Of a stretch of 47,240 nucleotides of DNA, positions 2 through 5,070 are shown piece by piece (position 1 is the stretch's first letter; each line of letters begins with the position of its first letter). This DNA comes from Cyanobacteriota bacterium (GTDB lineage Bacteria > Cyanobacteriota > Cyanobacteriia > PCC-6307 > Cyanobiaceae). The notes beneath the pieces were generated by a model. That model did no database searches. It saw only the letters and a program-made list of their open reading frames with translations, and had not been told where the DNA came from. The DNA is taken from positions 1 through 47,240 of the forward strand of contig JAQCGH010000013.1 of NCBI GenBank assembly GCA_027620015.1, given 5' to 3'. The position numbers and the translations under genes are program-made.

Positions 2-553
2 GCGGCCCGAGGCTTCAGCTTCCGGCTCGAGGGGCCGCTCGACATGCGCATGAACCCGGAGCGCGGCCAGACGGCTGGGGAGCTGCTTGATCGTGCCGGT
101 GAGAGCGAGCTGGCCGATCTGATCTATGGCTACGGAGAGGAGCGCTTGTCGCGGAGGATCGCCCGCAAGATCAAGGAGCAGGGGCCCTGGGCCCAGCGCC
201 ACACCGCCGAGCTGGCCTACCTGGTGGCGGGTTGCTACCCACCGGCGGCGCGCCGCGGCCGCATCCATCCAGCCACACGCACCTTTCAGGCTCTGCGCAT
301 TGCCGTAAACGATGAGTTGGGGGTGTTGGACAAGCTGTTGCACAACGCCCCCGACTGGCTGGAGCCAGGCGGACTTATGGCTGTGATCAGTTTCCATTCC
401 CTTGAAGATCGGCGGGTGAAAACGGCCTTTCTGGCCGATGCTCGGCTGGAGCGGGTAACGCGCAAGGCGATTAAGGCCAGCCCGGAGGAGGCCGAAGCCA
501 ATCCGCGCAGCCGAAGCGCCCGACTGCGGGTGGCACAGCGGCGCAGTGAGTAG
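2..553 (+). CDS. rsmH: 16S rRNA (cytosine-1402-N4)-methyltransferase RsmH, 3' part
   Basis: This is the C-terminal 183 residues of RsmH (MraW), which methylates N4 of C1402 in 16S rRNA using S-adenosylmethionine. The reading frame is open from base 2, so the 5' part lies outside the window. The sequence shows the family hallmarks GPLDMRMNP near its start, then the helical insert with AELAYLVAG and [18 protein letters not shown], and the SAM-fold strand [17 protein letters not shown]. The tail is rich in Arg and Ser, as is usual. It ends in TAG just before a sharp drop in GC content, so it is the last gene of the native GC-rich segment on this side. Confidence 0.95.
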
Positions 554-605
554 CTGGAGGATGAATAGATGCTATGTAAGGGCGTCTGAGGAATTCAATT
601 TGCCC

Positions 606-827
606 ATGCAAGAGAAACAAGCAAATTCGCTGGCGCTTGCAACATTCGTGATTGGATCCGTTATGGGGGGTGCACTCAATGCCACTCTTATGGGCAGTAT
701 TCAGTATGAAGCAGGTATTAACGAGATTTACCACTGCGCGCGAAGCTATCAATCCCAAGCGCTCTCGATGGATCAGCTCGAAGGATGTCGCGCAATTGCT
801 CGCAAGCTGCGCGATCCTGATAGGTAA
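606..827 (+). CDS. small hypothetical membrane protein
   Basis: This is a 73-residue ORF that I do not recognise. Residues about 8-30 are hydrophobic and Gly/Ala-rich and could form one membrane segment. The polar C-terminal half has two Cys (in YHCARSY and EGCRAI) and ends RKLRDPDR. The frame stays open upstream to base 546, but the GGAGG at 556-560 directly abuts the upstream ATG at 561 and cannot serve it. The ATG at 606 has GAGGA at 588-592, a rather long spacing. It lies at the start of the AT-rich island and converges with the PAP2 gene. It could be spurious, since there is no homology support, only an open frame and a plausible membrane segment. Confidence 0.4.
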   Translation: MQEKQANSLALATFVIGSVMGGALNATLMGSIQYEAGINEIYHCARSYQSQALSMDQLEGCRAIARKLRDPDR

Positions 828-859: not shown

Positions 860-1534
860 TTAATTGCTTTTCCGATTGTGCTTCCATGATTCTCTTCTTA
901 ACCAAAGCCCTGCAAGATAGTTAGCAAAGCAGCCGACCAAGGCTCCAGCTGCTACATCGGTTGGGTAATGGGCGCCGCTGCTGATTCTTGTGAATCCGCA
1001 GCCAATCGCCATCCCCAGTGCGGGCCATCGCAGGGTTGGGAAGATCGTTATCAAGGCGAGACTTCCACCAAAAGCAACTGCGGCATGTGAGCTCGGCAGT
1101 CCTAGTCCACTTGATGACCAGGCTCGTTCGGAGAAGGCCCGGAATACATACACTTCTTGGTCAATCGGACGCTCTCTGCGAATAATCAGTTTCAAACATT
1201 CTGCAATAAGCCCTCCTAGGCCGGCGCTAAGACAGATCGATATGGCAGCAGTTTTTAATGATGCGCTCTCTCCCTTAATCCTAAGCTCTAAGGGAGATGC
1301 AGAATCTGACCGGGGGAATGCTATTGCCATAGAAATTGAAATCAATAACCATGTCCACATACTTCCGCCAATCCTGAAAAGATAATAAAGGTCTCCTTTT
1401 AGGACCCAGGCATTTGACTTGAAGAAAGAAAGGACCTTGAAATCGCTTAGGGCTATAATTATTCCAGCCAATAAGTAGGTAAATAGTATAGTTTTTCGTG
1501 GTATATGACCACGTAAAATACTTGTGAGGGCCAT
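860..1534 (-). CDS. PAP2-family membrane phosphatase
   Basis: This 224-residue polytopic membrane protein carries the complete type-2 phosphatidic acid phosphatase signature: K115-x6-RP (122-123), then PSSH (147-150, with Ser in place of the usual Gly), then R183-x5-H189-x3-D193. The family removes phosphate from lipid substrates such as phosphatidate, undecaprenyl diphosphate or lipid A (LpxE and LpxF are members). Active-site motifs normally face the periplasm. The gene is the last of a minus-strand trio after an ArnT-like glycosyltransferase, about 80 bases downstream of it. ATG at 1534 is the only good start. The substrate cannot be told from sequence; lipid A or a polyprenyl phosphate carrier fits the context. 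Confidence 0.85.
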   Translation of the reverse strand: MALTSILRGHIPRKTILFTYLLAGIIIALSDFKVLSFFKSNAWVLKGDLYYLFRIGGSMWTWLLISISMAIAFPRSDSASPLELRIKGESASLKTAAISICLSAGLGGLIAECLKLIIRRERPIDQEVYVFRAFSERAWSSSGLGLPSSHAAVAFGGSLALITIFPTLRWPALGMAIGCGFTRISSGAHYPTDVAAGALVGCFANYLAGLWLRRESWKHNRKSN

Positions 1535-1613
1535 TTTGATTAAATGAGAGGGTGTTGGTCGTGAGGGGGCGTGGATGGCGTATTTGACTACTGCTGCGGC
1601 TTCGGTCGACTAT

Positions 1614-3359
1614 TTAGCTAGAATTATTTTCTTTGATCCAATCACTTTTTAGGACTGAAAGATTGATAGTCTTCCCTTTGGAATAGTTAAATCCACTATA
1701 CGTACCAAGGATGTATATATTGCTGTAGGACGAAAGTTGCTCTCTTACTTTGCCTACGTCATTTGATTCAACTATTAAAATGGATGTAGGATGTTTTGCA
1801 GCGTGTTGAATTATCCCATGAAGATCAGTTAATGTTGTGTCTGTGCCCAGGTTGAAAACTAAGCTAGGTTCTTGGTATGAAGCAGCGGCGATGGGCAGTG
1901 TGCCAAAATCGTTGGAGTCAATAATTAATTTAATTTGTTTTGCAGGCCAAAGATTATTTAGGTTTGGCAGAAAAGCTTCAAAAATAAGCCCAAAAACAAC
2001 GACCGCAGACAAAGCTGAAGTATATAGCTGTCCTTTGGAGGTCTTGATTGTCTTTAATGCCAACAAGCTGAAGATGCAACCCAGGGCTATTAGGAGTGCG
2101 GCAACGGTTATGCTGCCACTAGCCCAAATGCTTAGTAGGGGTACCCCAATAGCGAGAGCTAAGCCTGAAGCTATCCAGGCAAACATCCCAATTCTTTGGG
2201 GCCATTTAGATAGCCTAAGCAAAGGACCATCTTGAAGTCGATCGGGTTGAAAGATGCCAATGCCTGCCAGAAGGCATAGAGGTGGGATTAGTGGTAATAC
2301 ATAGTGAGGCAGTTTTGTGGGTACTAATTCAAATACAATCCAAGCTGGCACGAGCCAACCGCACAGAAATTGTGTTGTACGACTAAGTGTTTCTGAAGTT
2401 CTCCGTAGTCCTTCCCAAGCCTTGGGAAGCAATAGCCAGGAAGTAGGCCAAAGCAAAAATGGTGTGATTAACAGATATGTTCCTGGTGGGGCACCATGGC
2501 TTTCCTGGCCACTGACAATTTTGCGCAAAAAGTCCTGTTGGATAGAATCTCGTAGAAATTGCCCTTCGCTAAGTGCCTGAATGCTGAAAAGCCATGGGCC
2601 AATTAATATTAAAGGCAGTAGTAGCCAGGGCCACGGTTGTATTTTTATTACTGTTGAGATGCTGCGATCTTTCCAGCAGATCCATGCCAAGGTGAGTAAG
2701 GCAAGAACTGGAGCGACCGGCCCTTTGATCAATAATGCAACACCGAGACCGAGCCAAAAGAACAGGCGTGCGCGCAGAAGCTCATGATCCTTAGGAAAAC
2801 AATAAATTTGAGCAAGGCCTGCCTGCATGGCAACTATGGCAGCTAGTTGCATTGCATCAGTTTTTGCAAGATGAGCCTCAACTCCGATTAAAAGGCTGCA
2901 TGCCAGTAGAACCGCAGAACAAAATGACTGGAGATTGCCGACTATTTTTCTAAATCCCAAATAGAGAAACAAAACAGCGCTTGTTGCTCCAATTGTGGAG
3001 GGCAATCGATAGGGGCTGCGCTCAGTGGGGGCTATTCCTATTTGTTTGGCTATTCTGCTGAAAGTTGCTTGCAGCCAATAAATGCCCACAGGCTTTTTGT
3101 ATCTTGGTTTATCTTGAAAGCTAATATTGACTAGGTTTCCAGTTGCCACCATTTGCTTTGTTGCTTGCATGTATCGGGATTCATCTCGATCTGTGGCTGG
3201 TAGGCTTGAGATGCCTGGAAGGTATAGAAATAAACACAGTAAAGCCAGCAACAATGTCGCGGTAATCTCATCAGTCTGGATTTTGACCCTGATCCAGTTG
3301 TGAAATTTTTGACATAAAATCTTCATCTGTGTTGCCGGCTTATTTGCCTCGGACGGCAT
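1614..3359 (-). CDS. ArnT-like glycosyltransferase (GT83/PMT superfamily)
   Basis: This large integral membrane protein (581 residues from ATG 3359) has about a dozen hydrophobic segments. The first periplasmic loop carries the family core TDRDESRYMQATKQMV followed by KPVGIYWLQATF, matching the DExRY and KPPLYYW-type motifs of ArnT and RgtD-like enzymes. Such enzymes move a sugar from a polyprenyl-phosphate donor to lipid A or LPS core on the periplasmic side. A soluble domain follows from about residue 480. Starts at ATG 3359 (overlapping the upstream PAP2 gene by 20 bases) and ATG 3326 (13 bases after its stop) are both possible; neither has a clear ribosome-binding site. The sugar and acceptor are unknown. 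Two flanking PAP2 phosphatases suggest a shared lipid pathway. Confidence 0.85.
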   Translation of the reverse strand: MPSEANKPATQMKILCQKFHNWIRVKIQTDEITATLLLALLCLFLYLPGISSLPATDRDESRYMQATKQMVATGNLVNISFQDKPRYKKPVGIYWLQATFSRIAKQIGIAPTERSPYRLPSTIGATSAVLFLYLGFRKIVGNLQSFCSAVLLACSLLIGVEAHLAKTDAMQLAAIVAMQAGLAQIYCFPKDHELLRARLFFWLGLGVALLIKGPVAPVLALLTLAWICWKDRSISTVIKIQPWPWLLLPLILIGPWLFSIQALSEGQFLRDSIQQDFLRKIVSGQESHGAPPGTYLLITPFLLWPTSWLLLPKAWEGLRRTSETLSRTTQFLCGWLVPAWIVFELVPTKLPHYVLPLIPPLCLLAGIGIFQPDRLQDGPLLRLSKWPQRIGMFAWIASGLALAIGVPLLSIWASGSITVAALLIALGCIFSLLALKTIKTSKGQLYTSALSAVVVFGLIFEAFLPNLNNLWPAKQIKLIIDSNDFGTLPIAAASYQEPSLVFNLGTDTTLTDLHGIIQHAAKHPTSILIVESNDVGKVREQLSSYSNIYILGTYSGFNYSKGKTINLSVLKSDWIKENNSS

Positions 3360-4068
3360 GATTGGGTTTGGGTGCAAAAACTGCCGCCCCCGCTATTCCT
3401 ATTGCGGCACCTATGCAAATATCGCTCAGGAAATGAGATAGGCTGTTTATTCTCTGAAATGATGCAAGTATCGCAAGGGCTATGAATACTGATCTTCCTC
3501 TTGGGTAAAACCAGCAGAGTGAAACTGCAAGGCCTGCCGCTACTGCCGCATGCCCTGAGGGAAAGCTCATTAGGGCCGATCTGCTAACGGAATCAGATTT
3601 GAGTAATTCTTGACCGAAAGTGTCGAGAAAGCTGGTTTGTAGATTAAGCAGTGCTGAATGGGGCCTTACGCGGTTTATCGTTAACTTTAGAAGGTCAACT
3701 ATTAATGCCCCAAGGTAGCTTCCGGCGATTAGTTGGGAGGCAATTAATCGGTCCCTTTTTTTGCGCCAGTTGATTCGCTTTATCGCTAGCGCCGCAATGA
3801 GAATCATTGCGGCACCAGTGCCGTGGCCTCCTATTTCTGCAAGGCGGAGGATATTGCTAATCTCTTTCGGGAGCGGATGCGTTGAGGTAAACAGGGCAAT
3901 TGGTACGTCAATCGTGAATGCCAAAAGTCCAACGCATATCAGTAGAACGCTGAGCCTTGCTGCTTGTTGACGCAGAAGTGATGAATTAAGGGGAAGTGCC
4001 CTAGGGCTTATTATTAAATAAAAAAAATATTGCGCTTGTGCTTTTAGAGTGCTGGCAATCGGAGGCAC
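3340..4068 (-). CDS. second PAP2-family membrane phosphatase
   Basis: This 242-residue membrane protein has the canonical PAP2 motifs K128-x6-RP (135-136), PSGH (170-173) and R206-x5-H212-x3-D216, all catalytic residues present. It differs clearly from the other PAP2 protein of the island, so the pair is not a recent tandem duplication. It is the first gene of the trio, and its 3' end abuts or overlaps the transferase start, indicating co-transcription. The start is a GTG (4068) without an obvious Shine-Dalgarno; no upstream ATG is in frame nearby. Possible roles are LpxE/LpxF-like lipid A dephosphorylation, recycling of undecaprenyl diphosphate, or phosphatidylglycerophosphate dephosphorylation. 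Confidence 0.85.
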   Translation of the reverse strand: MPPIASTLKAQAQYFFYLIISPRALPLNSSLLRQQAARLSVLLICVGLLAFTIDVPIALFTSTHPLPKEISNILRLAEIGGHGTGAAMILIAALAIKRINWRKKRDRLIASQLIAGSYLGALIVDLLKLTINRVRPHSALLNLQTSFLDTFGQELLKSDSVSRSALMSFPSGHAAVAAGLAVSLCWFYPRGRSVFIALAILASFQRINSLSHFLSDICIGAAIGIAGAAVFAPKPNHAVRGK

Positions 4069-4211: not shown

Positions 4212-4979
4212 TCAGCCGATCAGGCCGGTGCGGTCTTCGGCGCTAAACAGCTGTCGGAAGGCGGCAGTAGAGATGCACAGCACCAGCGGCACTACCACCA
4301 GTAGACCGCCGTAGCTGAACAGGGCCCCAATGACGTGGATCACGCCCTCAATTATTGCGAGCCACAGCACCATCCACCAGCTGGGATTCACCACGTTTAA
4401 GCCTGAACCAATAGTGTTTAAGGGATTGGCGGTGCCCAGCAGCGACACCTGGATCAGGAACTTCTGGGTGACAAGCAGCCAGATGTAAAAGATCGCCACC
4501 ACGATCATTGGGATCACGCTGAGAGCTTCGTTGAGCCTGCCTAGACCTGCCCATATCAGGGTGGCGATGGCCCCGGCTACAGCTATGACGACCACGAGGA
4601 GGATGCCTGAACCAAGCAAGCGGACGCTGGCGGGACGGTCCCAGCGGGTGAAGTCTGCGAAGCAGGGCTTGCGGCCCTCCAGGCTCAGCCAGGCGCCGCG
4701 GGTCAGGCCGACCACGGTCCACAGGGCCACAATCACGTAGCCGATAACGCCCACTATGAAGGCAGCCCAGGCGCCGGTGGGGTGTACTGCCATCGCCTCA
4801 TCAATCTTGGCCAGGCGGCCGGCACCTACGGCCGCCAGGGCTGCGAAGGGCAGCAGGATTAGGGCGGAGAGGGCCTGAAAAAGTAGAAAAGACCATGGGG
4901 CTCGGCAAAAAGCACCCCAGCCATCTTCCACGGCCTGGAGCACGCGCAGGCTGTTATCGCTGGAGGGGGTAAGGGCCAT
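4212..4979 (-). CDS. conserved-type multi-pass membrane protein, function unknown
   Basis: This 255-residue protein starts at ATG 4979 (MALTPSSDNS); the frame also opens with a TTG two codons upstream. After a short polar N-terminus with VEDGWGAFCRAPW it has about six hydrophobic segments (roughly residues 33-55, 75-100, 125-155, 158-180, 200-225 and 225-245) and ends with a polar QLFSAEDRTGLIG tail. The layout resembles small bacterial integral membrane proteins of the DUF/BPSS1780 type, with paired Gly/Ala-rich helices and one loop containing a charged RWDRPASVRLLGSG stretch. No catalytic motif is visible. It is GC-rich like the rest of the genome, so it marks the right border of the island. 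It is oriented like the cysteine desulfurase gene upstream but separated by about 90 bases. Confidence 0.7.
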   Translation of the reverse strand: MALTPSSDNSLRVLQAVEDGWGAFCRAPWSFLLFQALSALILLPFAALAAVGAGRLAKIDEAMAVHPTGAWAAFIVGVIGYVIVALWTVVGLTRGAWLSLEGRKPCFADFTRWDRPASVRLLGSGILLVVVIAVAGAIATLIWAGLGRLNEALSVIPMIVVAIFYIWLLVTQKFLIQVSLLGTANPLNTIGSGLNVVNPSWWMVLWLAIIEGVIHVIGALFSYGGLLVVVPLVLCISTAAFRQLFSAEDRTGLIG

Positions 4980-5070
4980 GATCAAGGGCAGTTGTGCCGG
5001 ACAGTAGCGATGGAGACATCAGTGCCCATTCAAGTTGTGAAGCTTTGAATTACTGAGCTGGTCTTTGCCC

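Follow-up and report, generated by a model that had tools for sequence, protein, structure and literature searches.

An AT-rich PAP2–GT83/GT39–PAP2 gene trio as a candidate lipid A dephosphorylation and glycosylation cassette in LpxK-bearing picocyanobacteria

What would a cyanobacterium do with two PAP2 phosphatases placed on each side of a sugar transferase, all encoded in a short segment much richer in AT than the DNA around it? This question is raised by contig JAQCGH010000013.1 of the assembly GCA_027620015.1 (Cyanobacteriota bacterium, Cyanobiaceae), of which positions 1 to 47,240 were analysed (the window, 47,240 nucleotides). The initial annotation had described a minus-strand PAP2–GT83–PAP2 run and proposed that it exchanges phosphate for a sugar on lipid A. 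The run itself is present, with open reading frames at 860-1534, 1614-3377 and 3340-4068, and the features of the locus are as follows.

546..827, plus strand: flanking 93-aa ORF beside rsmH, outside the cassette; neighbour conserved in Cyanobium usitatum
860..4068, minus strand: AT-rich island with the trio (GC content), its order and flanks as in C. usitatum Tous (synteny with G126, locus L132)
860..1534, minus strand: PAPa, PAP2 phosphatase, candidate lipid A phosphatase (Pfam PAP2, 65.5 bits; motifs)
1614..3326 (ORF 1614-3377), minus strand: GT83/GT39-type polyprenyl-phosphate sugar transferase, RgtF-like candidate (PMT_2; tree)
3340..4068, minus strand: PAPb, PAP2 phosphatase, candidate lipid A phosphatase, N-terminus uncertain (Pfam PAP2, 60.9 bits; motifs)
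4212..4985, minus strand: flanking 257-aa membrane protein with no Pfam match, outside the cassette (C. usitatum neighbour, 89% identity by BLAST)

The island is far poorer in GC than its surroundings, as had been noticed at first sight, with 45.6% at 860-4068 compared to 62.1% elsewhere (z = -5.9); the lowest segment of the same length sampled downstream of it has 56.7%, and the GC3 of the trio genes is 0.40-0.43 against approximately 0.75 in their neighbours. No insertion footprint emerged from the surrounding repeats, which are short and chance-like, and scans for promoters and terminators around the trio gave no excess over shuffled sequences. The nearest named genome is that of C. usitatum str. 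Tous, where the trio and its flanking genes are the same, with identities of 88% for the transferase and 89% and 94% for the PAP2 proteins. This is a freshwater species, and the shared trio and flanks thus place the locus in a freshwater picocyanobacterial lineage of the Cyanobium type, not in marine Synechococcus. The probable start of the transferase is the ATG at 3326, the position matching the start of its orthologue in C. usitatum Tous; in each genome, 13 nt separate this start from the PAPb stop upstream of it. With that start, the apparent overlap with PAPb (3340-3377) would not be real.

Both PAP2 proteins belong to the PAP2 lipid phosphatase/phosphotransferase superfamily, with profile scores above the cut-off and the catalytic residues in place, and they are the only PAP2 genes in the whole genome (99.7% complete). 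The motifs of PAPa are KLIIRRERP, PSSH and TRISSGAHYPTD (pattern KX6RP, PSSH, TRX5HX3D) and those of PAPb are KLTINRVRP, PSGH and QRINSLSHFLSD (pattern KX6RP, PSGH, QRX5HX3D). Compared to the reference pattern KX6RP–PSGH–SRX5HX3D, PAPa has a serine for the glycine of the second motif, and the serine before the third-motif arginine is a threonine in PAPa and a glutamine in PAPb; hence, the description of both as motif-complete holds for the catalytic residues but not for these positions. Among solved structures, the PAPa profile has as its top match LpxE from Aquifex (6ebu, E 7.9e-6), while that of PAPb matches YodM (5jki, E 3.4e-5) and LpxE (6ebu, E 6.3e-5). Even for characterised LpxE proteins, the identity to Aquifex LpxE is only about 14-17% (PMC6581854). 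In searches of plasmids, the matches were PAP2 proteins without an assigned function only.

In the PAP2 tree, the PAPa group, made of PAPa and a PAPa2 subgroup, is monophyletic (100/99), as is PAPb (100/99), and the two join (97/92) apart from E. coli PgpB, YbjG and LpxT, whose rows are long-branched, and from the other cyanobacterial PAP2 groups. Membership of PgpB, YbjG or LpxT was rejected on this separate clade and on scores of 14-24 bits against cut-offs of 229-261 (YbjG, PgpB). The initial annotation had named a grouping with PgpB/YeiU phosphatases, without co-occurrence of the transferase, as the outcome that would speak against its proposal; instead, the E. coli proteins stand apart and the transferase does co-occur. 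The two proteins could also be auxiliary undecaprenyl-diphosphate or phospholipid phosphatases, with the transferase working on another surface glycan and the genes travelling together as an envelope island. PAP2 phosphatases are promiscuous, their substrate is not fixed by sequence, and such enzymes often act on C55-PP, including LpxE itself (PMC6581854); moreover, weak NCBIfam matches are to the undecaprenyl-diphosphatases SepP and YbjG, and the matches of PAPb include YodM besides LpxE. However, those NCBIfam scores, at 22-26 bits, fall short of the cut-offs of 229-250, and the genome carries an ordinary UppP/BacA apart from the PAP2 genes, so they are not needed as the sole undecaprenyl-diphosphate phosphatases. 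This explanation, the main alternative to a lipid A role but one that we consider unlikely, would also leave unexplained the restriction of the pair to genera with LpxK and the acylation genes beside one of the transferases, both described below.

A role in lipid A modification depends on which lipid A is made, and the genome encodes LpxK (283 bits; TIGR00682, 197.6 bits against a cut-off of 92), so that a 4'-phosphate should be there for an LpxF-type enzyme to remove. The gene is part of a contiguous cluster, DUF374–WaaA–LpxK–LpxB–MsbA-like (L094:7888-13701, on contig C32 of the same genome), found also at the loci L179, L180 and L181. The MsbA-like gene has a GC3 of 0.41, well below the 0.59-0.65 of its cluster neighbours. 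LpxK was found in 11 of the 151 family genomes, in two genera only, and in 15 of the 16 genomes of the own genus, one of them by a partial match; in a sample of 386 genomes from the phylum, it occurs elsewhere only in families outside the class of the window, bar one weak match, and these families presumably represent non-photosynthetic lineages. According to a published survey, cyanobacteria have no more than four of the nine genes for Kdo2-lipid A, namely lpxA, C, D and B (PMC3087551). The parallel drawn in the initial annotation with marine Synechococcus does not fit, because LpxK is reported to be missing from those strains, an absence given as the reason for their phosphate-free lipid A (PMC4515613), whereas it is present in this lineage.

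Among the genomes examined, the PAP2 pair is restricted to these two genera. Orthologues of PAPb (46-94% identity) are present in eight genomes, all of them in the two LpxK genera, and a pattern-limited scan across 84,980 species genomes gave none outside them. The survey of co-occurrence that had been called for gives a PAPa-type partner in all eight and a close transferase (46-88% identity to that of the window) in six, with a contig-edge fragment in one other genome; the absence of PAPa from genomes lacking LpxK holds for the loci examined, mostly the best 30 PAP2 matches. The pair is missing from six of the 11 LpxK-bearing genomes of the family sample and is consequently dispensable. The two LpxK genera may stand for a single evolutionary event, hence giving few independent points for the association, and the Fisher tests applied to it make no correction for shared ancestry. 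The three genes occur in several layouts: PAPb–transferase–PAPa in the own genome and C. usitatum, PAPb adjacent to the transferase with PAPa elsewhere (G158 and G163), a PAPb–PAPa tandem (G140 and G168) and a convergent PAPa/PAPb pair (G143 and G153). This regrouping of the same genes suggests, at the level of gene order, a functional link among them. PAPa-type genes adjoin dnaE in both genera (L063, L135, L173, L174, L176 and L178), a site that may be the ancestral position of PAPa, as the shared placement suggests.

It can also be considered that only one PAP2 protein is a lipid A 1-phosphatase acting with the transferase, the other acting elsewhere, for instance on undecaprenyl diphosphate, in which case one phosphate stays, as in Mesorhizobium. 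In M. loti, LpxE and RgtF suffice for galacturonic acid (GalA) at C-1, lpxE and rgtF being held responsible for it (PMC7795004), and PAPa-type genes without PAPb are present in three further members of the own genus (G081, G159 and G160). PAPb, however, is always accompanied by a PAPa-type partner, and G143 and G168, which lack a close transferase, still have the pair, suggesting that the two phosphatases work together and making a division of targets quite improbable.

The AT-rich composition and the patchy distribution would likewise suit a recently acquired, decaying passenger without present function, and genome G153 adds traces of mobility and decay: its PAPa/PAPb pair (L170:5619-10310, contig C1) lies between two apparently identical 522-aa DDE transposase genes in a composite-transposon-like arrangement, and a second, frame-shifted PAPb copy stands beside the transferase (C1:1244165-1244704; L171:8176-8750), the intact copy being elsewhere in the same genome. 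However, open frames and catalytic motifs are kept at 88-94% identity between two species and at 44-58% in distant ones, and the PAPa and transferase trees both split along the two genera, a pattern compatible with old co-inheritance and repeated loss. A passenger without function is thus very improbable.

Regarding the transferase, it scores 31.5 bits with PMT_2 (cut-off 26.1), and its best solved-structure match is ArnT (5ezm, E 1.4e-8), with which D65/E66, K95 and D174 align, residues invariant in alignment A3 and matching the aspartates and lysine of the ArnT active site; by this score and these conserved residues, it is a GT83/GT39 polyprenyl-phosphate sugar transferase. The likeness to ArnT, the L-Ara4N transferase, extends to the fold class and these aligned residues, but membership was rejected: the protein reaches 78 bits against the ArnT equivalog PRK13279, whose cut-off is 567, is 23% identical to E. 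coli ArnT and separated from it by a supported branch, and neither arnBCAD nor any other arn gene adjoins it. The label ArnT-like used at first is therefore too loose. Instead, the transferase clade groups at 100/100 with GT39 proteins of Azospirillum, apart from native cyanobacterial GT83 and E. coli ArnT, and the Azospirillum GT39 is the nearest relative found outside the cyanobacteria (33% identity over 92% of the length); no relatives were found in phages. Through these relatives, the enzyme is a candidate RgtF-like rather than ArnT-like transferase. The own genome has a second, distant GT83 (contig C58, L079:6744-9810; approximately 29% identity), of a type widespread in the family, which adjoins a GT4 glycosyltransferase.

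Independent neighbourhoods in other organisms (Azospirillum, Mesorhizobium and G153) point, by analogy, to lipid A. The Azospirillum gene, the closest non-cyanobacterial relative, lies in a GT2–LAB_N–GT39 operon, differing from the trio by the GT2 and LAB_N genes and by the lack of PAP2, and the lipid A of A. lipoferum is phosphate-free, with an alpha-linked GalA at the reducing end (C-1) (PMC4153317). In M. loti, rgtF, lpxE and rgtE are clustered (PMC5644692), a system of 1-dephosphorylation and alpha-(1,1)-GalA transfer that resembles the trio in that a GT83-type gene is clustered with the gene of a PAP2 lipid A phosphatase; compared by description, the trio differs in having two PAP2 proteins, no GT2 and a cyanobacterial host. 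No RgtE-like GT2 donor synthase lies next to the trio in the own genome or in C. usitatum, and the locus is accordingly not of the full rgtE–rgtF–lpxE type. In G153, an ACP, a FabZ-like protein, two ketosynthases and an AcpS–LpxL fusion are encoded in a run (C1, L171:208-5315) with the transferase approximately 1 kb downstream, resembling the rhizobial acpXL–lpxXL cluster for very-long-chain acylation of lipid A. Rhizobium leguminosarum offers, by description, a further counterpart, as two PAP2 enzymes (LpxE and LpxF) and a GT83 (RgtD) replace phosphate by GalA; unlike the trio, those genes are not listed as one cluster (locus numbers, PMC7663294).

Within the family, LpxK-minus members carry a separate GT2(DPMS/GtrA)–GT83–PAP2 cassette (L068:5427-8296 and L069:4900-8450), possibly an ordinary cyanobacterial lipid A module. 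It also pairs a GT83 with a PAP2, but the PAP2 is single, has a threonine for the third-motif arginine, and both proteins fall in other clades; the PAP2 and transferase trees rule out that the trio is this cassette.

Taken as a lipid A cassette, the trio would work as follows. The Kdo-lipid A of this genome would keep the 1-phosphate that LpxB leaves and receive a 4'-phosphate from LpxK. Once flipped by the MsbA-like transporter, it would meet the trio at the periplasmic side of the inner membrane. There, the two PAP2 phosphatases would remove the 1- and 4'-phosphates, and the GT83 enzyme would move a sugar, most likely galacturonic acid, from a polyprenyl-phosphate carrier to a freed position, most likely C-1, as with RgtF. 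From kinship and gene context, we infer the substrate, the sugar, the positions, the order of the reactions and the assignment of each PAP2 protein to a phosphate. The exchange proposed in the initial annotation is borne out in part: the phyletic pattern, the transferase phylogeny and the neighbourhoods argue for it, while the marine Synechococcus parallel and the ArnT label fall away. A role of some kind in lipid A is quite probable for the trio, and dephosphorylation together with glycosylation is given a probability of roughly 0.57, with the sugar and the site held loosely. The full version, in which both phosphates are stripped and replaced by a uronic acid in two freshwater picocyanobacterial genera with a proteobacterium-like Kdo-lipid A pathway, is tentative, with the odds somewhat against it.

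Both the components and their logic have precedents in alphaproteobacteria; the novelty lies in the host, in the arrangement with two phosphatases and in the LpxK context, and a literature search of incomplete coverage found no such cassette described in cyanobacteria. LpxK and WaaA are present in these photosynthetic cyanobacteria, some of which also have a plausible dephosphorylation and glycosylation cassette, and the PAP2 pair was found only in two genera that have LpxK, unlike nearly all other photosynthetic cyanobacteria sampled. As strains with and without the cassette exist in one genus, the origin of the phosphate-free lipid A of cyanobacteria can be tested by strain comparison, for which C. 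usitatum Tous, with the trio, and Synechococcus sp. CS-1331, which has the PAP2 pair but no close transferase, can be set against LpxK-bearing relatives lacking the cassette. If the proposed reading is true, these picocyanobacteria would reach, by a longer enzymatic route, the phosphate-free and GalA-bearing lipid A reported in other cyanobacteria without LpxK.
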